Below are positions 10,653 to 21,513 of a DNA stretch of 34,275 nucleotides, piece after piece; positions within the stretch are counted from its first letter, which is position 1; each line of letters opens with the position of its first letter. This stretch comes from Chitinophagaceae bacterium (GTDB taxonomy: Bacteria > Bacteroidota > Bacteroidia > Chitinophagales > Chitinophagaceae). The notes beneath the pieces were generated by a model, which saw only the letters and a list, made by a program, of their open reading frames with translations, made no database searches and was not told where the DNA came from. Position numbers and translations under genes: made by a program. The stretch is taken from assembly GCA_026415715.1 (NCBI GenBank), contig JAOAGO010000030.1:1-34275 (forward strand), given 5' to 3'.

Positions 10653-10759
10653 TATTACAAAAATGAAAAATATTAATATCTAAAAAATTTTTACAGTGTT
10701 TACAATTTGTTAATATGCCGTTTCACAAACTTTTTTTTCTTTGAGAATAAACGCATCTC

Positions 10760-13024
10760 ATGAGTTTTCTGGTGTTTGTACTCATTGTTCTTTTCATTTT
10801 AGCCATTACAGACCTTATTGTTGGGGTAAGTAATGATGCCGTGAATTTTCTGAACTCTGCCATTGGCAGCCGGGTTGCACCGTTTAAAACGGTTATTTTA
10901 ATTGCAGCTTCCGGGGTTATTTTGGGTTCTTTATTTTCCAGCGGCATCATGGAAATTGCCCGTAAAGGGGTTTTTCATCCCGAATATTTTACGCTGACGC
11001 ATATCATGTTTGTATTTCTGGCAGTAATGCTTACGGATATCATTCTGCTGGACTTTTTCAACACACTGGGTTTGCCCACTTCCACTACGGTTTCCATCAT
11101 TTTTGAACTGTTGGGCGCTTCGTTGATGACGGGAATTCTGATTACGGCGAATACCCAACAGCCGATGTCGGATATCATGAAATATATTAATGCGGAAAGT
11201 GTGGTTACGATTATCAGTGGAATATTTCTTTCTATCATCATTGCCTTCACGGCCGGTATTCTTATACAATACCTATGTCGTTTGCTGTTTACGTTTGACT
11301 ATGAGCAAAATCTGAAAAAATTCGGAGCGCTTTTTGCCGGTATCGGCATCACTGCCATTGTGTATTTTCTTTTAATTAAAGGATTAAAAGGAACTACCTT
11401 GTTGAATGCTTCGGTGCGCAACTGGGTGGGCGAAAATACACGGCTTATATTGGTGTTACTTTTTGTTTTGGGCTTTCTGACCAGCTTTTTGTTACAACGT
11501 CTTGCCGGATTAAACCCGCTGAAACTGATAGTGCTGATGGGAACTTTCTCGTTGGCCATGGCTTTTGCCGGAAACGACCTGGTGAATTTTATCGGCGTAC
11601 CGATTACAGGATTTCTGGCATTTCAGAACTGGAGAAACAGCGGTGTTCCCGCCGATGAACATTATCAAACCTATCTGGCCACAAACGATGTGGTGGTGCC
11701 GAATTATATGCTTTTCATTTCCGGCGTGGTGATGGCGCTGACGTTGTGGTTTAGCGCCAAAGCAAGAAAAGTAACGCAAACGGAAGTAAACCTGGGAAGT
11801 CAGCATGAAGAAGATGAGCGCTTCAAGGCAAATAACATATCACGAAATATCGTGAAAACTTCTATGCGCATCAGTAACCTGCTGTCGCTGATAGTACCAA
11901 AAACGTTAGCCAGAAAATATACCTTAAGTTTTGAAAAAAGCAAAATGAAGCAGGCTACTTTAGTACATGACAAGCCCTCGTTCGACCTGGTAAGGGCAGC
12001 TTCCAACCTGATTATATCGAGTTCGCTGATAGCCTGGGCTACCTCAATGAAATTGCCTCTTTCCACAACTTATGTCACCTTTATGGTGGCCATGGGCACT
12101 TCACTGGCCGACAGAGCCTGGGGGCGGGAATCGGCCGTATATCGGGTAGCCGGAGTACTGAGTGTTATAGGGGGATGGTTCATTACGGCAGTTATTGCTT
12201 TTGGCGTTTCTGCACTTTTTGCTTTTATACTGTTTCAATTCAAGATAGCGGGCACAATATTTCTGGTGGCGCTGGCTGCCGTTTATATCATCTTTTCGCA
12301 CATCCGTTTTGCCCGCATGGAAAAAAAGAAAAAAGAAACATCTCCGCAGTTGCTTATTGTTGATTCTTCCGATGCAGGAATAATTGAAGCCAACCGAAAA
12401 ATGATAGCGGAACAACTGTCTGAAATTAACCGCATCTACGCCGCTACATTAGATGCCCTGAAAAACAGCGATAAAAACAAACTCGAAAAAGCTTTTAAAA
12501 AATTGAAAGAACTGCAGGAGTACGGATTCAAACTCAGGGCGCAAAGCATACGCTATATCAAAAGCCTGAGTACAAGGGAATCAAAACCGGCCGAAGTTTT
12601 ATTATACAGCACAGACCTGTTACACGATATCACGCACTCAACCATCACCATGACAGAAGAGTGCATGCATTATATTAAAAACCTGCACAAAGAGCCGGAT
12701 AAAGAATTTATTCTAATTATACAGGAATTGAAATCCAAAATGCAAAATTTTCTGAATCTCGTTACAGATACCATACTCCAAAACAAAATGACTGAAGTGG
12801 AAAATATTAAATCAACCCGCGACGACCTGAGAAATTATGTAAACACCCTGCTGGATGAACAGGTCAATCTGATCCGACATAAAAAACCCGGAGTTAAACA
12901 AGCTATTCTGCAAACCAATATCTTGTTGCAAACACGTGATATCTTAGCCGTGGGACTTCGGATGCTGAAAATGTATAAAAAATACTACACCACACCGGTA
13001 GTAAATGTAACACAGGAAATGTAA
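10760..13024 (+). CDS. Inorganic phosphate transporter (PiT) with fused PhoU-like tail
   Basis: 754 residues. PiT carriers move phosphate, usually as a metal-phosphate complex with a proton or cation, across the inner membrane. The duplicated family signatures are GVSNDAVNFLNSAIGS (22-37) and GNDLVNFIG (271-279), with LPTSTT (105-110) and LPLSTT (432-437). About a dozen membrane segments extend to ~residue 515. Residues ~530-754 are charged and helical (EQLSEINRIYAATLDALKN, KLEKAFKKLKEL and so on), like the PhoU/DUF47 helical bundle. So the regulatory partner that is a separate gene for the second PiT (19567) appears fused here. Its first signature has SND rather than the more usual HD/ND pattern of short bacterial PiT. 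Confidence 0.93.
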   Translation: MSFLVFVLIVLFILAITDLIVGVSNDAVNFLNSAIGSRVAPFKTVILIAASGVILGSLFSSGIMEIARKGVFHPEYFTLTHIMFVFLAVMLTDIILLDFFNTLGLPTSTTVSIIFELLGASLMTGILITANTQQPMSDIMKYINAESVVTIISGIFLSIIIAFTAGILIQYLCRLLFTFDYEQNLKKFGALFAGIGITAIVYFLLIKGLKGTTLLNASVRNWVGENTRLILVLLFVLGFLTSFLLQRLAGLNPLKLIVLMGTFSLAMAFAGNDLVNFIGVPITGFLAFQNWRNSGVPADEHYQTYLATNDVVVPNYMLFISGVVMALTLWFSAKARKVTQTEVNLGSQHEEDERFKANNISRNIVKTSMRISNLLSLIVPKTLARKYTLSFEKSKMKQATLVHDKPSFDLVRAASNLIISSSLIAWATSMKLPLSTTYVTFMVAMGTSLADRAWGRESAVYRVAGVLSVIGGWFITAVIAFGVSALFAFILFQFKIAGTIFLVALAAVYIIFSHIRFARMEKKKKETSPQLLIVDSSDAGIIEANRKMIAEQLSEINRIYAATLDALKNSDKNKLEKAFKKLKELQEYGFKLRAQSIRYIKSLSTRESKPAEVLLYSTDLLHDITHSTITMTEECMHYIKNLHKEPDKEFILIIQELKSKMQNFLNLVTDTILQNKMTEVENIKSTRDDLRNYVNTLLDEQVNLIRHKKPGVKQAILQTNILLQTRDILAVGLRMLKMYKKYYTTPVVNVTQEM

Positions 13025-13035
13025 TTCAAGCCCAT

Positions 13036-13078
13036 AAAAAAAAATCCACACTGCCTCCGGAATACAGCAACAGTGTGG
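13036..13078 (-). terminator. Strong intrinsic terminator (minus strand)
   Basis: Perfect 8-bp stem CCACACTG / CAGTGTGG (13071-13078 and 13046-13053) with a 17-nt loop. On the minus strand it is followed by one A and nine T (13036-13044). No annotated leftward protein gene ends here, so it most likely terminates the small RNA proposed at 13036-13140. On the plus strand there is no T run. Confidence 0.7.
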
Positions 13079-13140
13079 TAGTCTGCCTGAGAAAAACTGC
13101 TACCGGCCATTAGACTGAATGCCGGATGAAAATAAAAGAA
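13036..13140 (-). ncRNA. Candidate Pho-type small RNA, about 105 nt
   Basis: Not a known family. Support: a promoter-like array with a -7-like box (13147-13207, minus strand) placed a few bases before the expected start ~13140, and a strong intrinsic terminator at 13036-13078. Between them is a hairpin with stem CCGGCATT / AATG(G)CCGG (13103-13125), one bulged base and loop CAGTCT. That loop is complementary to AGACT at 13080-13084 on the same strand, just before the terminator stem, so a pseudoknot is possible. No open frame of useful length lies inside. The RNA would end 12 bases beyond the PiT gene stop codon without overlapping the coding region. Start site and existence of the transcript are inferred. 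Confidence 0.45.
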
Positions 13141-13146
13141 CTGCTT

Positions 13147-13207
13147 CAAAAGTGCCTCTTCTGATTTACCAACATGTTAATTCCGTTTTAAGCTACGGTT
13201 AAAATTT
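13147..13207 (-). promoter_or_regulatory. Pho-box-like array (4 x 11 bp) with -7 box CACTTTTG
   Basis: Four consecutive 11-bp units start at 13164, 13175, 13186 and 13197, each with TTTA or GTTA at offset 2-5. On the minus strand they read TTAACC, TTAAAA, TTAACA, GTAAAT, then 9 bases, then CACTTTTG (13147-13154). The 9-base gap and the CANNTTTG form are identical to the array upstream of the TonB receptor (19322-19404). PhoB-type regulators bind 11-bp-spaced direct repeats just upstream of the -10 region. It might instead serve the rightward gene at 13283, but the orientation fits the minus strand. Confidence 0.5.
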
Positions 13208-13282
13208 GAAGCCTGAAAAAATTTTTTTTCTTCAATATTATTTTATTGTTAATTTTTTGTATCTTTATTGTTAATATATACC

Positions 13283-14494
13283 ATGATTTTTCGGTTTTTT
13301 ATACCATTTTTTCTTTCATTTCCGGTGCTTTTGTCATCAAAAAGCACAGGCGGACAAACTTTTTTATTAAAAATCAACTTTTTAGGAGATACTTTAGAAT
13401 TCAATTACCCGAAAATAAAACCATTTGAAATAAATAAACCCTTAAGCGCCGAATTGGCGGTTTTATTTTACAAGGCTGCAAAAGAATCAGAATACGAAAA
13501 TACATTGAAGCAAATGCTGGAGTATCGCCGAAAGAAAGGACTGGAAGATTGGCTTTACTATCAGTTGATTCGCAGGGTATCTCATGCACTGAGTCCTAAA
13601 CAGGAAAATTATTTCCGATATACCTTATACAAATGGTTTTTCCTGAATGAGTCGGGTTATGATGCTACGCTGAAGGTAAGTGATGAAAAAATGCTGTTTT
13701 ACGTTCATACCGATGAAAACATCTATAACATACCCTGTTATGTAAAAAACGGAAAACAGTACGTTTGCCTGAATTATCATGATTACGGAAATGAAATAGA
13801 TTTCGGAAAGGAAAAATTTACTGAAATATCATTACAGGACGGGGCATCCGGAGTTTCTTTCTCATATCGCATAACGGCATTACCTGAAATGAGTGAAAAT
13901 GTTGCCACAGATAAATGGATTCAGTTTGATTATGGCGGAAAAGAATTTTCAATACCCGTGAAATTCAACCCCGAAATCAGAGCTCTGTTTCAGAACTATC
14001 CTGTGGTGGATTATGAATCGTGTTTCAACATTCCGCTCAGTAATGTTGTTAAAAGCACATTGATTCCGGAACTGAAAAAATATGTAAAAGGATTGCCGGT
14101 AAAAAAAGGAGTGGAATACTTAATGTATTTTACCCGTTATGCTTTTCATTTTAAGAAGGACGACGATATGTACGGCAGCGAAAAACGTTTTTCACCCGAG
14201 CTTACCCTGATTTCAGAGGCAAGCGATTGTGAAGACCGGGCGGCCCTGTTTTTTGCACTGGTAAAAGAAATTTACAATCTTCCCATGCTGGTAATAACGT
14301 TTCCTGACCATGTTACCGTAGCTGTACGTTTAAACAAACCCAGAGGGAAAACGATAACTTATAAAGGAGAAAAATATACTCTATGCGAACCAACCCCACA
14401 GCGTATTGATTTATCTGTAGGTCAGTGGGCGCCCACGCTTCGTAAAAAAGATTTTGAAATTGCTTTTTCCTATCAGCCCTCGCCTGAACGATAA
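13283..14494 (+). CDS. Exported transglutaminase-like (cysteine peptidase fold) protein
   Basis: 403 residues from the ATG at 13283; an in-frame TTG at 13268 is less likely. The N-terminal signal peptide is MIFRFFIPFFLSFPVLLSS. The C-terminal third carries the transglutaminase-core pattern: SEASDCEDRAALFFALVKEI with Cys316, FPDHVTVAV with His343, and CEPTPQ at 368-373, where Glu369 takes the place of the usual acidic third residue. The N-terminal two thirds contain helical and then beta-rich segments I cannot assign. In Bacteroidota such exported proteins may hydrolyse peptide or amide bonds or cross-link; substrate unknown. A TATCTTTA box (7 of 8 matches to the -7 consensus) lies at 13260-13267. 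It ends one base from the stop of the convergent lipoprotein gene. Confidence 0.75.
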   Translation: MIFRFFIPFFLSFPVLLSSKSTGGQTFLLKINFLGDTLEFNYPKIKPFEINKPLSAELAVLFYKAAKESEYENTLKQMLEYRRKKGLEDWLYYQLIRRVSHALSPKQENYFRYTLYKWFFLNESGYDATLKVSDEKMLFYVHTDENIYNIPCYVKNGKQYVCLNYHDYGNEIDFGKEKFTEISLQDGASGVSFSYRITALPEMSENVATDKWIQFDYGGKEFSIPVKFNPEIRALFQNYPVVDYESCFNIPLSNVVKSTLIPELKKYVKGLPVKKGVEYLMYFTRYAFHFKKDDDMYGSEKRFSPELTLISEASDCEDRAALFFALVKEIYNLPMLVITFPDHVTVAVRLNKPRGKTITYKGEKYTLCEPTPQRIDLSVGQWAPTLRKKDFEIAFSYQPSPER

Positions 14495-15094: not shown

Positions 15095-16474
15095 TTAATA
15101 GGTATTTGTCTGAGGTGTGTAGCTAACCCAGTTGGCAAGCCAGTTAGACGTACCCAGCGCACCCCGGAAAGTTACCGTAGTGAAGAATGTAGGATCAAGA
15201 CCTGCAAAGGAAGCGCCGCTGAGCGCTGGTGAACCTGCCTTGGGCATAAAATTCGGATTGTCCCAGTTAAACGGATCTTCCAGCATAATATTTGCGGGAT
15301 TGGTGTAAGTGATACAACCATTTGCTTCGGCTTTGGTGCGTACCTGAGCCGCCGTAATTACGGCTCCGGCAGCAGCGTCTACTCTGTAAGGATCTGCTAA
15401 TGCATGCACCAGGTTATTTCTGAATAATGAGGAGTCCGTGTTATAGGCACTGGCTGTAGCAGCGCTTTCCATAGAAAATCCGGCTCTCGGGAATCCCATC
15501 ATGATAGAGTTGTGAACTTCAAATCGAACGGCTCTTCTCCATCTGTTGGCAAAGTTGAGATTTGCCTGCGTATTGGGATCTCCGTTCGGCCCTATCCAGG
15601 TAATATTGGAGAGAATAGGTCTGGTATAGGGCTGAGCCAGTGTTCCTGATCCGTCATTGTCGGCTTCAACACCGTTACCGGCATCCGTATCAGCTATTTC
15701 GGGACGACGCTGACATACGGCAAACTGAATTTTTCCAATGTATCCGAAATCAAAATCAAGATCATCATCCGAAGTGGCGTAAGCAACAAGGTATTTTGCA
15801 TTATGCGTTCCGCCGAAAAATTCAAAAGCATCATCGTTTCCGTAAGAAACCTGAATGTATTCAAGCGTTGTACCCGAACCTACCCCACCGGTAGTGAGCC
15901 CGTTAATTTCCGAACCGGGTTCGGCAGCTATACCGGCCCATTCAATACGGCAATATCGCATGGTTCCCGAATTGTCATTCGGTATGGTTCCGCCGTAGCG
16001 ACGATCTACTCCCCCTTCAATCAGCGGAGCGGGTGATAAAGGCCTGTTTGTGGGGGCATTTCCAAGGAGTATTACTCCACCCCAGTCTCCTCTGGCTCTT
16101 TGTCCGGCCGGTTTGCCTGAAGTAAATACAATAGGCCTGGTAGCCGTACCCAGTGCTTCAATTCTGGCTCCTCGCTCAATGATTAATGCGCCTTTTTGCG
16201 AAACATCACCTTTGATAATAGTACCCGCAGGAATGGTAAGCGTGGTACCGGCCGTAAAGTAAACATATCCCTTTAAGGTATAGACGCCTCCCTGTAGCGT
16301 AATATTTCTTTCATATGAACCTACAAGCACCCGGGAAACGTTGGGATCGTCGGGGTTAGTGCCCACACCACCGCCGGATGCATTGTCTTCATTAAAATTC
16401 ACTTTTACGCAAGATCCTGCTGCAATGCTGATGATTGCCACGAAAAGAAGATTTCGGAATAATTGTGTTGCCAT
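15095..16474 (-). CDS. Surface lipoprotein with predicted right-handed beta-helix
   Basis: 459 residues. Signal peptide with lipobox AAGSC (Cys22) and then a Gly/Asn/Asp-rich spacer. The body has repeated short beta strands with parallel-helix character: AGTTLTIPAGTIIKGD, GALIIERGARIEALGTATRPIVFTS, GDWGGVILLGNAPTN, TLEYIQVSYGNDDAFEFFGGT. Proteins of this type are annotated as multidrug-transporter-like or T9SS-linked by similarity, but the fold points to a surface binding protein. It is 21 bases downstream of the TonB receptor gene and shares its terminator, so the two are one operon. By analogy with TonB receptor/lipoprotein pairs, it may capture substrate for the receptor; the Pho-like promoter suggests a phosphorus-containing substrate (inference). 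Confidence 0.8.
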   Translation of the reverse strand: MATQLFRNLLFVAIISIAAGSCVKVNFNEDNASGGGVGTNPDDPNVSRVLVGSYERNITLQGGVYTLKGYVYFTAGTTLTIPAGTIIKGDVSQKGALIIERGARIEALGTATRPIVFTSGKPAGQRARGDWGGVILLGNAPTNRPLSPAPLIEGGVDRRYGGTIPNDNSGTMRYCRIEWAGIAAEPGSEINGLTTGGVGSGTTLEYIQVSYGNDDAFEFFGGTHNAKYLVAYATSDDDLDFDFGYIGKIQFAVCQRRPEIADTDAGNGVEADNDGSGTLAQPYTRPILSNITWIGPNGDPNTQANLNFANRWRRAVRFEVHNSIMMGFPRAGFSMESAATASAYNTDSSLFRNNLVHALADPYRVDAAAGAVITAAQVRTKAEANGCITYTNPANIMLEDPFNWDNPNFMPKAGSPALSGASFAGLDPTFFTTVTFRGALGTSNWLANWVSYTPQTNTY

Positions 16475-16495: not shown

Positions 16496-19306
16496 TTAAT
16501 TTTTAGATTTTAAACTAAAATCATAAGTCACGCCGAGACTGATGGTAGTTCCCGGACGATATGAATAATTGATTCGGTCGCCCTTGCTGTATTCATATCC
16601 CGGTTTATCAGTCGGGTTATCATAAAAAGCATATTTGTTGTTCAAAAGATCGGCAATGGTTAACTTGATTTCTCCTTTATTCTTGAACACTTTTTTGGAA
16701 ACCTGCATGTCAACCAGATTCCGGGGCCTTTCATAAATATCGAAGAATCCGGCACCGTTCGGATCCCCTACCAGAGAAAGACGCGGACCTATCCTGTTGT
16801 ACAGGATTGTGGTGTTCCAATCTTTTTTGGTATACTGAAATCCTGCGTTTATCAAATACGGAGATTGTCCGTACAAGGGTCGGTTCTGATCTACTTTTAC
16901 TCCGGTAGCTTGTTCGGTGGTAAGCGTTACGGTTGAATTCAAAAAGGTAAAATTGCTGATGAAGGTAAACCCTGCTAATTTTTCATTGATGAAATCAAGT
17001 CCTTTACGTATTTCGGCCTCAAAACCAAACAAGCGGGCCTTATCGGCATTGGTAAACTCAAATAACCATCTGTCACCGTTGCTGCCGGGATCCATTCTTA
17101 ATTCAATAGGATTTTTGAACGATTTAGCCAGCAAGCCTACCGAAAAAACTTCGCCTGCCTTCGGGTAAAATTCATATCGCAAATCAGCATTTAAAATTGA
17201 AGTACGTTTTAAATTGAGGTCACCGCTTATTCCCCAGATTTGCTCGTAATCGAAGAACTGGAAGGGAGCAATTTCCCTGAATTCGGGACGGGCAACCGTT
17301 TTTGAACCGGCAATGCGGAGCTGACTTTTATTGGTAACTGACCAGATCAGATTCACTGAGGGCAGAAAATCCCATTTTTCGGTATTCACCACAACACGTT
17401 TCAGCGCCAGATCCTGTGTAGTAAGAAACTGCTCAAAAAATTCGGTTCGGAGCCCCCAGATAGCCCTTAATTTTTCACTGATCTTATTATCAAACATGAA
17501 ATAGCCTGAATTTAGCAGAGATACACCGAAATATTTATCTGTGTTTTGTGTTAATTCATCAAGGAACAGCCCGTTGGATTTTATGTTTTCCCTTAAGAAG
17601 GCACGGTCGTAAGGAATGGTAATATCCGTAGCCGTGGATGCCGGACGATAACGGAATACCCTGGCTTTGAAATTACGGAACCGCAAAGTGCTTCCGCCGC
17701 CTGCTTTAAAGGTTTGTTTCTGCCCCCCCAAATTAAAAGGAACCGTTACCGACCCGTGGCCTCCGAATGTAAAATCTTCGAGGGTAGAAAAGAATCGTCG
17801 GGTATCATCATCATCCATCTCATATTTACTGTTCGGAAGCGATGAGCTTTTAACGTACTGGGCAGTTCTGAAATCGGGTTGTGTTTTGTAGTTGTATGCG
17901 AAATTTCCGTTCCACTTCAATTTGATTCCGGAAGAAGTAATCTGATGATCGCCTTCCAGCTGACTGCTTACCAGTGTTCGTTGATTCAGGAATGAAGATC
18001 GTAACGAAACCAGTTGCAAACGGCCCACATTATCCAGCAACCGGTTATAGTAATTGTCTTCATACAGTTGGTTGAAAAGATTTTTGAATGACACTTTGTG
18101 CTTGCCTTTTATATATGTAAGGTTGAACAAGGCGCCTGAACTTACAGAATATCTGTTTTGAACTTCAGTTCCGGTAAATATGGGTGTTCTTACCTGCTCA
18201 AAACGACCTCTTTCCACCTCGTCGTAAATAATCTGGCTTTGTCTGTGATAAAGGGAGAAAAGCGTTCCGAAACTGGCATTGTTTTTGAACCGCTTGACAT
18301 TCGACCAGGAAAGATTCAGCGTAGTAATGGGCGGGGCTTTTCTGACCACTTCGCCGAAGACATCATCTTTAAACAATTTTGTTTTTTCAATTTTCTGCGC
18401 ATCGGGCAAAGAACGGTATCTCGGTATGGAAGGGATGGAATCCGGAAGGCTTCTGTCGCCGTTGTCAAATCCCAACCAATCCAGCGGATTCCGCTTGTTT
18501 GAGGTAAAGTTTCTGAATGTGGATTGTGTATTGAATCCTACGGTAAAACCCACTGATAATGTATTGGAAGAAGGAATGTCCCGGGTACGAATCTGAACAA
18601 GTCCTCCGGCAAATTCACCCGTTAAATCGGGTGTTGCGGTTTTATTGATGATTATATTATCAATCATGGCCGAAGGAATCACATCGAAGGAGAAAGCCTT
18701 TTTATCCGGTTCGCTGCTGGGCATTAAGGCGTCATTAATCAGGGCCTGATTGTATCTGTCACTCAAACCGCGAACAATCACAAATTTGTTATCCTGTATG
18801 GATGTTCCGCTGACGCGGCGAAGAACCTCGCCAGTGTTTTTGTCGGGAGTTCTGCGGATAAAATCAGCGGCTATTCCGCTGGAAAGGGTAATATTATTTC
18901 GCTGAAAGCTGAGTAGGGCTACCGTGTTTTCCTGACGTCGTGAAGTGGCTTTAACCGTTACGCCTTCCAGATTAGATTTTTGGCTTTCGGTTAGAACAAT
19001 TTCCAGATAATTTTCAATGCCGGATTGAACATCTACTTCATTTATTACCTTCGTTTCGTAGCCTGTAAAAGAAACCCTGAAAGTATATTTACGGCCGGGT
19101 TCCAGATTTATATAAAATTTCCCTTCCACATCAGCCACTACACTCCGATTCAATTCTTCTATCTGAAGAGTGGCACCCGGAAGAGACTCATTTCGGTTAT
19201 TGATAACTTTTCCGCTTAAACGCAGCCCTTGTGCAAAAGAGCCAATGTTGTTAAATATTGTTAAAAAAGCAACAAAAAAAACACTTAGTACTGCCGTTCT
19301 GAACAT
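16496..19306 (-). CDS. TonB-dependent outer-membrane receptor with carboxypeptidase-regulatory-like domain
   Basis: 936 residues. Signal peptide (1-26, cleavage after SFAQ), CarboxypepD_reg-like domain (~28-110: LSGKVINNRNESLPGATLQIEE to the FTGYET and IVLTE segments), plug domain (~135-245, with VRGLSDRYNQALINDALMPSS and PDLTGEFAGGLVQIRT), then a 22-strand-type barrel to the C-terminus. It imports a ligand through the outer membrane using TonB-ExbBD energy. No SusD partner follows; the partner is the beta-helix lipoprotein. The six-unit 11-bp repeat upstream (19339-19404) and the nearby DUF47-PiT genes suggest phosphate control, possibly uptake of an organic phosphate. The substrate is not shown by sequence. 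Confidence 0.93.
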   Translation of the reverse strand: MFRTAVLSVFFVAFLTIFNNIGSFAQGLRLSGKVINNRNESLPGATLQIEELNRSVVADVEGKFYINLEPGRKYTFRVSFTGYETKVINEVDVQSGIENYLEIVLTESQKSNLEGVTVKATSRRQENTVALLSFQRNNITLSSGIAADFIRRTPDKNTGEVLRRVSGTSIQDNKFVIVRGLSDRYNQALINDALMPSSEPDKKAFSFDVIPSAMIDNIIINKTATPDLTGEFAGGLVQIRTRDIPSSNTLSVGFTVGFNTQSTFRNFTSNKRNPLDWLGFDNGDRSLPDSIPSIPRYRSLPDAQKIEKTKLFKDDVFGEVVRKAPPITTLNLSWSNVKRFKNNASFGTLFSLYHRQSQIIYDEVERGRFEQVRTPIFTGTEVQNRYSVSSGALFNLTYIKGKHKVSFKNLFNQLYEDNYYNRLLDNVGRLQLVSLRSSFLNQRTLVSSQLEGDHQITSSGIKLKWNGNFAYNYKTQPDFRTAQYVKSSSLPNSKYEMDDDDTRRFFSTLEDFTFGGHGSVTVPFNLGGQKQTFKAGGGSTLRFRNFKARVFRYRPASTATDITIPYDRAFLRENIKSNGLFLDELTQNTDKYFGVSLLNSGYFMFDNKISEKLRAIWGLRTEFFEQFLTTQDLALKRVVVNTEKWDFLPSVNLIWSVTNKSQLRIAGSKTVARPEFREIAPFQFFDYEQIWGISGDLNLKRTSILNADLRYEFYPKAGEVFSVGLLAKSFKNPIELRMDPGSNGDRWLFEFTNADKARLFGFEAEIRKGLDFINEKLAGFTFISNFTFLNSTVTLTTEQATGVKVDQNRPLYGQSPYLINAGFQYTKKDWNTTILYNRIGPRLSLVGDPNGAGFFDIYERPRNLVDMQVSKKVFKNKGEIKLTIADLLNNKYAFYDNPTDKPGYEYSKGDRINYSYRPGTTISLGVTYDFSLKSKN

Positions 19307-19321
19307 ATCTTAGATTTGACG

Positions 19322-19404
19322 CAAAGCTGAGAAGATGCAGTTACAGATACGTTACCGCAGTATTAAGCAATTATTATTGAGCTGTTAACATAATATTAAG
19401 AGAA
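19322..19404 (-). promoter_or_regulatory. Pho-box-like array (6 x 11 bp) with -7 box CAGCTTTG
   Basis: Six consecutive 11-bp units start at 19339, 19350, 19361, 19372, 19383 and 19394. Every unit has RTTA (GTTA or ATTA) at offset 2-5. On the minus strand they read TTAATA, TTAACA, ATAATA, TTAATA, GTAACG, GTAACT, then 9 bases, then CAGCTTTG (19322-19329), one mismatch from the -7 consensus. In E. coli the pho box is an 11-bp direct repeat that replaces the -35 element about 10 bp upstream of -10; the geometry here is the same. The TonB receptor ATG follows 16 bases after the box. Confidence 0.6.
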
Positions 19405-19566: not shown

Positions 19567-20214
19567 ATGGCAATTCAATCTCTTATCAAGATTTTCATGC
19601 CGAAAAACAGGGTTTTTTTTGAACTTTTCGAAAAGGTATCAGACAACGTAGCCCGTATGGGTGGTATTTTGAAAGAAGTGATAAATGAGCCTGAGTTTAA
19701 TAAGCGCTCAGCGCTGATTCAGCGACTGGAAGATCTGGAACACGCCAATGACGAACTCACCCACAGAATTTTTACGGAGTTGGGACGAAATTTCATTACG
19801 CCGTTTGACAGGGAAGATATTCACTATTTAGCCACAGCGCTGGATGATATTGCCGATCATATTTATGCTGCAGGAAAAAAAATTAATTTTTACAGAGTGG
19901 ATCCTGATGATACGGGAATGCGAAAATTCAGCGATTTAATAGAACAGGGCGTTATTCAGGTAAAAACCGCCGTGAATGAACTCCGGAACATGAAAAATCT
20001 CAGAAAAATCACGGAAGCTCTTGTCAAAATAAACAGCCTCGAAAATCAAGGCGACGATATCTTTGATTTCAGCATTGAAACCCTTTTCAATACCGAAATA
20101 GATGCCAAGGAAGTGATCAAAAAAAGAGAAATTTATCAGGTGATGGAGATCGTTACGGATAAATGCGAAGACGTCAGCAATGTAATTGAATCCATTATCA
20201 TAAAATATGCCTGA
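19567..20214 (+). CDS. DUF47 family protein (PhoU-like PiT accessory)
   Basis: 215 residues, all-helical, no membrane segment. Typical DUF47 features: FFELFEKVSDNVARMGGILKEV near the start, LEDLEHANDELTHRIFTELGRNFITPFDREDIHYLATALDDIADHIY in the middle (metal-binding E/D-rich helices as in PhoU), and EIVTDKCEDVSNVIESIIIKYA at the end. DUF47 proteins sit beside PiT transporters and modulate phosphate uptake. Here the PiT gene starts 75 bases downstream on the same strand, so the two are probably co-transcribed. It is the stand-alone counterpart of the tail fused to the first PiT protein. Confidence 0.93.
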   Translation: MAIQSLIKIFMPKNRVFFELFEKVSDNVARMGGILKEVINEPEFNKRSALIQRLEDLEHANDELTHRIFTELGRNFITPFDREDIHYLATALDDIADHIYAAGKKINFYRVDPDDTGMRKFSDLIEQGVIQVKTAVNELRNMKNLRKITEALVKINSLENQGDDIFDFSIETLFNTEIDAKEVIKKREIYQVMEIVTDKCEDVSNVIESIIIKYA

Positions 20215-20289
20215 TATAAATTTTGTCTTATAGCCCTTATCCGCTTATCTTTATTTCTCATTCATAGATTTCCTATATTTATAACGGCC

Positions 20290-21513
20290 ATGACGACAGC
20301 GCTGATAGTTATCATTGTTCTGGCATTAGTGTTTGACTATATTAACGGTTTTCATGATGCAGCCAACTCCATAGCCACGATTGTTTCAACCAAAGTACTT
20401 ACGCCTTTTCAGGCTGTTTTATGGGCGGCTATTTTTAATTTTCTGGCTTTCTTTATTTTTAAAGATCATGGCGTTGCAGATACCGTGGCAAAAACCGTTC
20501 ATCAGGATGCCGTTACCCAAAACGGAGATACCGGCCGCATGCTGGTAGTGATTATTGCCGGATTACTGGCGGCCATTACCTGGAATTTACTCACCTGGTG
20601 GTTCGGTATTCCCTCCTCGTCTTCACATACCTTAATCGGAGGTTTTGCCGGTGCAGCAATTGCTGCCGGCGGATTCAGTGCCATAAATTCGCAGGTTATC
20701 ATTAAAACAGCAAGTTTTATACTACTGGCACCCGTTATTGGAATGATTATGGCTTTTTTTATGTCACTTTGGTTTATCAGTTCGTTTCGGAAAGGATGGT
20801 CATCAAAAATTATTTCTGTATTAGTAATCGTTTTAGTTTATATTTTTCTTACCAAGAATCTGGTTTTTGACCGTATAATTCTGGCTGCTGGCACCGATTA
20901 TGAGCATTACGCCCTGCAGATAATTTTTTATTCCAAAAATTTTAAATGGATATTATTAGCTGTCATCCTGATAACTATGGCCATATTTGCATTATGGCTA
21001 AATACCTTAAACGCATACAGGGCCAGTTACTGGTTTAAAAAGCTTCAGTTGGTTTCATCTGCCGCTTTCAGCATTGGCCATGGAGGAAATGATGCACAAA
21101 AAGTGATGGGCATTATCACCGCTGCCCTGATCGCCGGCGGACAGATACAAAATTTTGGCGAAATGCCTTCCTGGGTACCGGTTGCCTGTTACACGGCTAT
21201 CGGATTAGGAACACTGAGCGGCGGTTGGCGTATTGTAAAAACCATGGGTACAAGAATCACAAAAGTTACTCCTTTTGAAGGCGTAGCAGCAGAAACTGCC
21301 GGAGCGTTGACGTTATTTTTAACCGAAGAACTACGGATTCCTGTCAGTACCACCCATACCATTACGGGTTCAATTATGGGAGTAGGCGCTACCAAACGGC
21401 TTTCTGCCGTTCGCTGGGGTGTTACCATTAATTTAATCTGGGCATGGGTGCTCACGATTCCTGTCAGCGCCCTGCTGGCCGGGGGAATTTATTATGTCAT
21501 CGGGCTTTTTTAA
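20290..21513 (+). CDS. Inorganic phosphate transporter (PiT family)
   Basis: 407 residues, about ten membrane segments, normal length for a bacterial PiT. Signatures: NGFHDAANSIATIVST (19-34), WWFGIPSSSSHTLIGGFAGA (103-122), SIGHGGNDAQKVMGII, and RIPVSTTHTITGSIMG. The two repeated halves of the family are complete, so it is expected to be an active low-affinity phosphate importer of the inner membrane. It has no fused cytoplasmic tail; the DUF47 gene upstream supplies that. galE follows after 31 bases and may be co-transcribed. It is the second PiT gene in under 10 kb. Confidence 0.96.
   Translation: MTTALIVIIVLALVFDYINGFHDAANSIATIVSTKVLTPFQAVLWAAIFNFLAFFIFKDHGVADTVAKTVHQDAVTQNGDTGRMLVVIIAGLLAAITWNLLTWWFGIPSSSSHTLIGGFAGAAIAAGGFSAINSQVIIKTASFILLAPVIGMIMAFFMSLWFISSFRKGWSSKIISVLVIVLVYIFLTKNLVFDRIILAAGTDYEHYALQIIFYSKNFKWILLAVILITMAIFALWLNTLNAYRASYWFKKLQLVSSAAFSIGHGGNDAQKVMGIITAALIAGGQIQNFGEMPSWVPVACYTAIGLGTLSGGWRIVKTMGTRITKVTPFEGVAAETAGALTLFLTEELRIPVSTTHTITGSIMGVGATKRLSAVRWGVTINLIWAWVLTIPVSALLAGGIYYVIGLF

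Follow-up and report, generated by a model that had tools for sequence, protein, structure and literature searches.

A Conserved Small RNA Gene with a Putative Pho-Type Promoter in Chitinophagaceae

Introduction

Small RNAs that respond to phosphate are known from other phyla. In Sinorhizobium meliloti, intergenic small RNAs rise in phosphate starvation, and some of the predicted candidates in this organism carry putative PhoB sites, as does the RNA gene described here. However, S. meliloti belongs to another phylum, and its starvation-induced small RNAs are without an evident conserved PhoB site (PMC2573895). Within Bacteroidota, the Rfp1-89 RNAs of Flavobacterium psychrophilum provide a precedent for independent short transcripts that are thought to pair with mRNAs. 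In contrast to our candidate, Rfp18 from this set is tied to proteases rather than phosphate, and the term "PhoB" is absent from the main text of that report (PMC9723704).

The responses of Flavobacterium johnsoniae to phosphate depletion include a glycosyltransferase encoded in the phoBR operon and PlcP (PMC8115612). In marine bacteria PlcP and a glycosyltransferase serve phospholipid replacement (PMC4796936). The F. johnsoniae regulon, which also includes PitA, SusC/D-type clusters and polygalacturonase-like lipoproteins, resembles the gene island in which the RNA lies, but it consists of protein genes, and neither "small RNA" nor "pho box" occurs in the main text (PMC8115612). As to the operator, PhoP boxes of Bacillus subtilis are TTAACA-type direct repeats of 11 bp. 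The array described below likewise repeats TTAA-type words with an 11-bp period ahead of a promoter, although B. subtilis belongs to another phylum and uses a different -10/-7 element, and binding of PhoB to our array is an inference. In the open-licence literature searched, and judging from search results alone, we found no Pho-controlled small RNA of Bacteroidota.

Here we describe a small RNA gene on a 34,275-nt stretch of DNA from a Chitinophagaceae bacterium (contig JAOAGO010000030.1, referred to as the window). Sequence and comparison establish the gene, its fixed promoter anatomy, its terminator and the recurrence of this promoter at phosphate genes nearby. That this conserved gene for an RNA of about 105 nt is activated by PhoB in low phosphate is the likely reading, in which transcription, the role of PhoB and the phosphate signal remain inferred.

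Results and Discussion

Anatomy of the Window Copy

The gene lies on the minus strand. It begins with an array of four 11-bp direct repeats (13159-13202), TTAACCGTAGC (13202-13192), TTAAAACGGAA (13191-13181), TTAACATGTTG (13180-13170) and GTAAATCAGAA (13169-13159), in the register shared by the relatives. We consider this array a putative Pho-type operator from a reading of the sequence, without binding data. A 4-bp spacer, GAGG, separates the last unit from a -7-type box, CACTTTTG (13147-13154); the Bacteroidota -7 consensus is TAnnTTTG. The predicted RNA of about 105 nt spans 13036-13142, with its start inferred from the box. It comprises a conserved open 5' stretch, CAGTTCTTT (13135-13143), that may serve as a seed, a predicted hairpin, CCGGCATT-CAGTCT-AATGGCCGG (13103-13125), a linker, TAGCAGTTTTTCTCAGGCAG (13083-13102), that is related to the TCTC..GCAG linker of the homologs and may be a second seed, and an intrinsic terminator (13036-13078).

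An earlier note, made before any comparison, had proposed this order of elements, and all pieces are indeed present. Its box position held, while its array (13164-13207, with a 9-bp gap to the box) is the same array read 5 bp off the register of the relatives. Its claim that no leftward protein gene needs this terminator agrees with the ORF scan of the window, which contains no leftward frame of at least 90 aa between promoter and terminator.

We compared the array with chance expectation. Its best three-unit score is 16 versus at most 14 in 20 Markov-simulated windows. The four-unit score of 19 was reached in one of these 20 simulations, and a second array in the window (19399, minus strand) reaches 20. 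A strict three-unit pattern derived from the small RNA array finds its sole exact match in the 2.63 Mb genome at its own site, with two one-mismatch sites elsewhere. A looser promoter pattern, in which as many as two mismatches were tolerated, shows no enrichment in the genome (75 sites, 30 + 45, versus 113, 57 + 56, for the reversed control), and of its eight sites with no more than one mismatch, three are the window arrays from which the pattern was made. In these arrays, which precede the small RNA, the TonB-receptor gene and the first PiT gene, the distance from the TTAA-type unit to TTTG is 23 nt throughout. The TTAA units look similar when read on either strand.

Homologs and Their Distribution

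Similarity at the DNA level did not lead to homologs. Searches with the window sequence hit 12 of 37 relatives at E values up to 0.1, with only short, chance-like matches at 18 places; among 293 family genomes, 8 gave short, chance-like matches at E up to 0.01 (7/8 inspected). Instead, homologs were first located by synteny. The gene divergent from the RNA, P0002 (13283-14494, plus strand), has no Pfam or NCBIfam match, and its homologs, which 12 of the 42 genus genomes contain, served as markers of the locus in relatives. Upstream of these homologs, eight genomes besides our own contain a divergent array, a CAGTTCTT-type start, a TTCTC/GCAG linker and a strong terminator.

From these eight homologs and the window copy we built a nine-sequence covariance model (R1) that leaves out the array. 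This model matches 13 of the 42 genus genomes and 24 of 394 family genomes, the latter spread over 8 of 101 genera. One match (G051) retains no more than the 3' part and was excluded from the alignments, which comprise 33 of the 34 homologs. A second model (R2; 33 sequences, half the array included) matches 15 of 396 genomes of the order and three of 395 genomes of the class, namely our own and two that we judge to be chance. At E values up to 0.1, R2 matches 18 of the 42 genus genomes. These include full-length matches in 12 of the 13 genomes found with R1, a match to the 3' part in G051, and G012, G004 and G050 as further credible cases. The remaining two, G018 and G019, were judged chance and not counted; second matches in G004, G012 and G042 were not counted either (E 0.003-0.05 for all five). 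Ten R2 matches are weak. Six of them look like chance (G160, G172, G546, G122, G1037, G819), and three or four appear genuine (G083, G234, G182 and perhaps G268). Taken together, these counts indicate that the RNA is nearly restricted to the family and patchy within it: most of the family genomes searched have no match, and across the class the RNA is all but absent. The window copy ranks among the most diverged homologs. One genome (G218) contains two copies about 4.7 kb apart (L152, 7646-7778 and 2943-3051).

No Rfam 15 family matches the window at its gathering score. Across nine loci, searches at E values up to 1 returned two matches, both below the gathering score; one of these, SNORD77 (E 0.98), overlaps the RNA in locus L078 and was judged to be chance.

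Independent Tests of Homology and Promoter

The array, which R1 had not seen, is found with the RNA nonetheless. TAA occupies three or all four of the unit positions in the same register in 33 of the 34 R1 homologs. Among matches outside the building set of R1, the array stands in register in 24 of 25, compared with 10 of the 89,547 remaining positions in these loci, and the spacing from array to box is constant across homologs. A third model (R3) rests on 32 homologs and excludes both the window copy and the array. Its top match is the window copy (50.8 bits, E 1.7e-8), far ahead of the next match (16.5 bits). In 16 fetched neighbourhoods R3 recovers 17 copies, each scoring at least 56 bits, with no other match above 20 bits. 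These 17 copies belonged to its training set, so that the window result alone is independent.

We also built a matrix from 31 small RNA promoters (excluding G000, G377 and G051) and scanned the window and the 16 neighbourhoods, 337,813 bp in all. The scan yielded 56 sites above 9 bits, none of which was flagged inside an ORF; 17 of these sites are training copies, and some represent one array read in another register. When the letters were shuffled, in five replicates, no site exceeded 9 bits (maximum 7.2). The window promoter, which lies outside the training set, scores 9.5 bits, the lowest of the small RNA promoters scanned.

Terminator and Folding

The terminator consists of a stem-loop (13078-13046) followed by a T run (13044-13036) and is the strongest in a terminator scan of the window. 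Its hairpin folds at -16.9 kcal/mol (z -3.97), and none of 200 shuffles is as good. A simpler hairpin scan, with loops limited to 3-8, did not pick it up. In the homolog alignment eight of nine stem pairs are changed on both sides, and 99.0% of cells pair; controls with slid positions pair at 39-47%, and none of 500 shuffles reaches any of five measures. GGACAG-type words occur in 17 of the 33 homologs, mostly in the terminator loop (for example in L089, L092 and L113), and are absent from the window copy. Such a word in the loop is unusual for a plain terminator.

The whole transcript of the window copy folds moderately (z -1.91, 6 of 200 shuffles as good). Upstream of the terminator, folding is no better than that of shuffles (mean z -0.26 over 33 homologs, 4 of 33 below -1). 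A conserved middle hairpin is not supported by these folds, nor by the first nine-sequence alignment, in which the middle helix has no pair that is changed on both sides. The structural claims of the earlier note therefore divide. The strong terminator held, and the compensatory changes it had suggested looking for in the stems are found in the terminator but not in the middle helix. The bulged hairpin at 13103-13125 folds as claimed in the window copy and is not conserved in that form. The proposed pseudoknot between the CAGTCT loop and AGACT rests on real complementarity (AGTCT/AGACT), which occurs in the window copy only among the 34 homologs, and was rejected for this lack of conservation.

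Conserved Sequence and Possible Targets

The 5' end is mostly unpaired in predicted folds and is conserved, with a [CT]AG[TC]TCTT motif in 32 of 33 homologs. GCAG[TA] occurs somewhere in the transcript of all 33; a TCTC..GCAG-type linker is matched in 24 and a TTAG-type word in 23. This concentration of conservation in open stretches points to pairing with mRNAs. A duplex-energy test for such targets, confined to 14 island gene clusters, returned none that is convincing (best combined z -2.94 and -2.3).

Genomic Setting

The first PiT gene of the window (10760-13024, plus strand), which carries a C-terminal extension, ends with its stop at 13024 near the 3' end of the RNA. It is preceded by an array with the same spacing (10699-10743, plus strand) that is not among the matrix sites above 9 bits. 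Further along lie a 459-aa gene without a Pfam match (15095-16474), a TonB-dependent receptor gene (16496-19306, minus strand), which has the same promoter architecture in front (19322-19377, minus strand, matrix score 19.1), and DUF47 and PiT genes (19567-21513).

This promoter stands before the TonB receptor gene in 14 of 17 neighbourhoods, and also before metallophosphoesterase, type I phosphodiesterase and other outer-membrane genes. Judged by the longest ORF, genes behind this promoter often begin about 14-18 nt past the -7 box (L137-L152; 19306-19322 in the window), which would imply very short leaders. The 17 neighbourhoods share much of their content: a TonB receptor and a lipoprotein-like gene (16 each), DUF47 and PiT (14 each), P0002, a glycosyltransferase and a metallophosphoesterase (10 each), and a PhoB-type regulator and a PhoR-type kinase (8 each). 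Domains were determined on single representatives, and the phosphate functions of these genes are inferred from the domains and from the F. johnsoniae study (PMC8115612).

The longest ORF of P0002 opens with TTG at 13268 and overlaps the likely promoter of this gene; the ATG at 13283 is the likelier start. Between the array and P0002, a conserved word, TTAACAATAARGTAATATTAA (13233-13252, minus strand, in the window; same place in L073-L081), is present in all nine aligned loci. It sits at the likely P0002 promoter and resembles the promoter word of the first PiT gene in the genus.

Location beside PiT, which the earlier note had emphasized, is true in the window and incidental; relatives usually carry the RNA within the same phosphate island. 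A search with PiT gave five named MAG loci with 37-42% identity, and these relatives, together with the gene types of the window, point to Bacteroidota by inference. Orthologs of the first PiT gene occur in four other genomes of the 42 in the genus. Downstream of these four orthologs, no array with terminator was seen within 450-500 nt. The earlier note had named loss of these elements in relatives that keep PiT as a refutation, and this is literally met in the four genomes. However, three of the four retain the RNA gene elsewhere in the neighbourhood: about 3 kb from PiT in G049, 16 kb away in G009, and upstream of PiT in G050. G020, which has a PiT ortholog, gave no match to the RNA. In G050 (L163) the RNA is flanked by the P0002 homolog and PiT and shares the strand of PiT; in G020 (L082) the PiT promoter occupies that place.

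Among the 34 loci, a glycosyltransferase cluster converges on the RNA in 18, and P0002 homologs are divergent or nearby in 20. In 11 loci the upstream gene is a lipoprotein gene co-oriented with the RNA, and the array is kept in 10 of these, all but G051.

Alternative Explanations

The alternative that survives best accepts a phosphate-controlled RNA and supposes that it binds or titrates a protein instead of pairing with mRNAs. GCAG-type words recur along the RNA, and no island gene emerged as a convincing pairing target. Against this view, the target test covered island genes alone, and there is no known partner protein; we regard titration as unlikely.

Three further explanations are much weaker still. 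First, the conserved element could be no more than a terminator for a converging neighbour, without a separate RNA. Such a gene does end nearby in the window (PiT) and in many relatives (the glycosyltransferase cluster in 18 of 34 loci). However, a converging gene would need the T run on the other side, and array, box and 5' CAGTTCTT are conserved along with the terminator, which makes this explanation very improbable. Second, the array could serve the divergent P0002, with the minus-strand transcript as a by-product. This idea draws on the 20 loci with P0002 homologs divergent or nearby, and on the resemblance of TTAA units on both strands. Yet the array stays in 10 of the 11 loci with a co-oriented lipoprotein gene upstream, its spacing to the box of the RNA is constant, and the plus-strand start in the window is some 75 bp from the array, so there is very little to recommend it. 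Finally, a short encoded peptide is equally hard to defend: an ATG frame in the window copy speaks for it but runs past the terminator, no reading frame is common to the 33 homologs, many frames in the middle region comprise only one or two codons, and two homologs lack any ATG frame in the part examined.

Proposed Mechanism

We return to the preferred reading, a phosphate-controlled small RNA that pairs with mRNAs. Comparison strongly supports the proposal of the earlier note that a small RNA gene lies here behind a Pho-type promoter, with transcription and phosphate control still inferred. Because relatives keep the RNA, which is probably regulatory, behind the same phosphate-type promoter, it is probably made when phosphate is short. 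In low phosphate, a PhoB-type regulator would bind the four 11-bp repeats immediately upstream of the -7 box and recruit RNA polymerase. Transcription would stop at the strong terminator to give an RNA of about 105 nt. Two open, conserved stretches of this RNA, CAGUUCUU at the 5' end and UUCUCAUGCAGUU ahead of the terminator, may then pair with mRNAs; this last step is inferred.

A bolder reading is possible, in which the Pho response of this family has a repressing arm, formed by the RNA. Its activator would also induce one small RNA that acts through several open seed copies and lowers phosphate-expensive functions. Repression itself is inferred here. For iron, RyhB performs a comparable sparing response.

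Conclusions

Intergenic and phosphate-responsive small RNAs are already known as kinds; the RNA described here is a new RNA family. The operator definition that emerges from the comparison, four 11-bp units followed by 4 bp and a -7 box, can be used to predict Pho-controlled genes in the family. If the proposal is true, the phosphate response of Bacteroidota would include a precise RNA component that can be put to the test.
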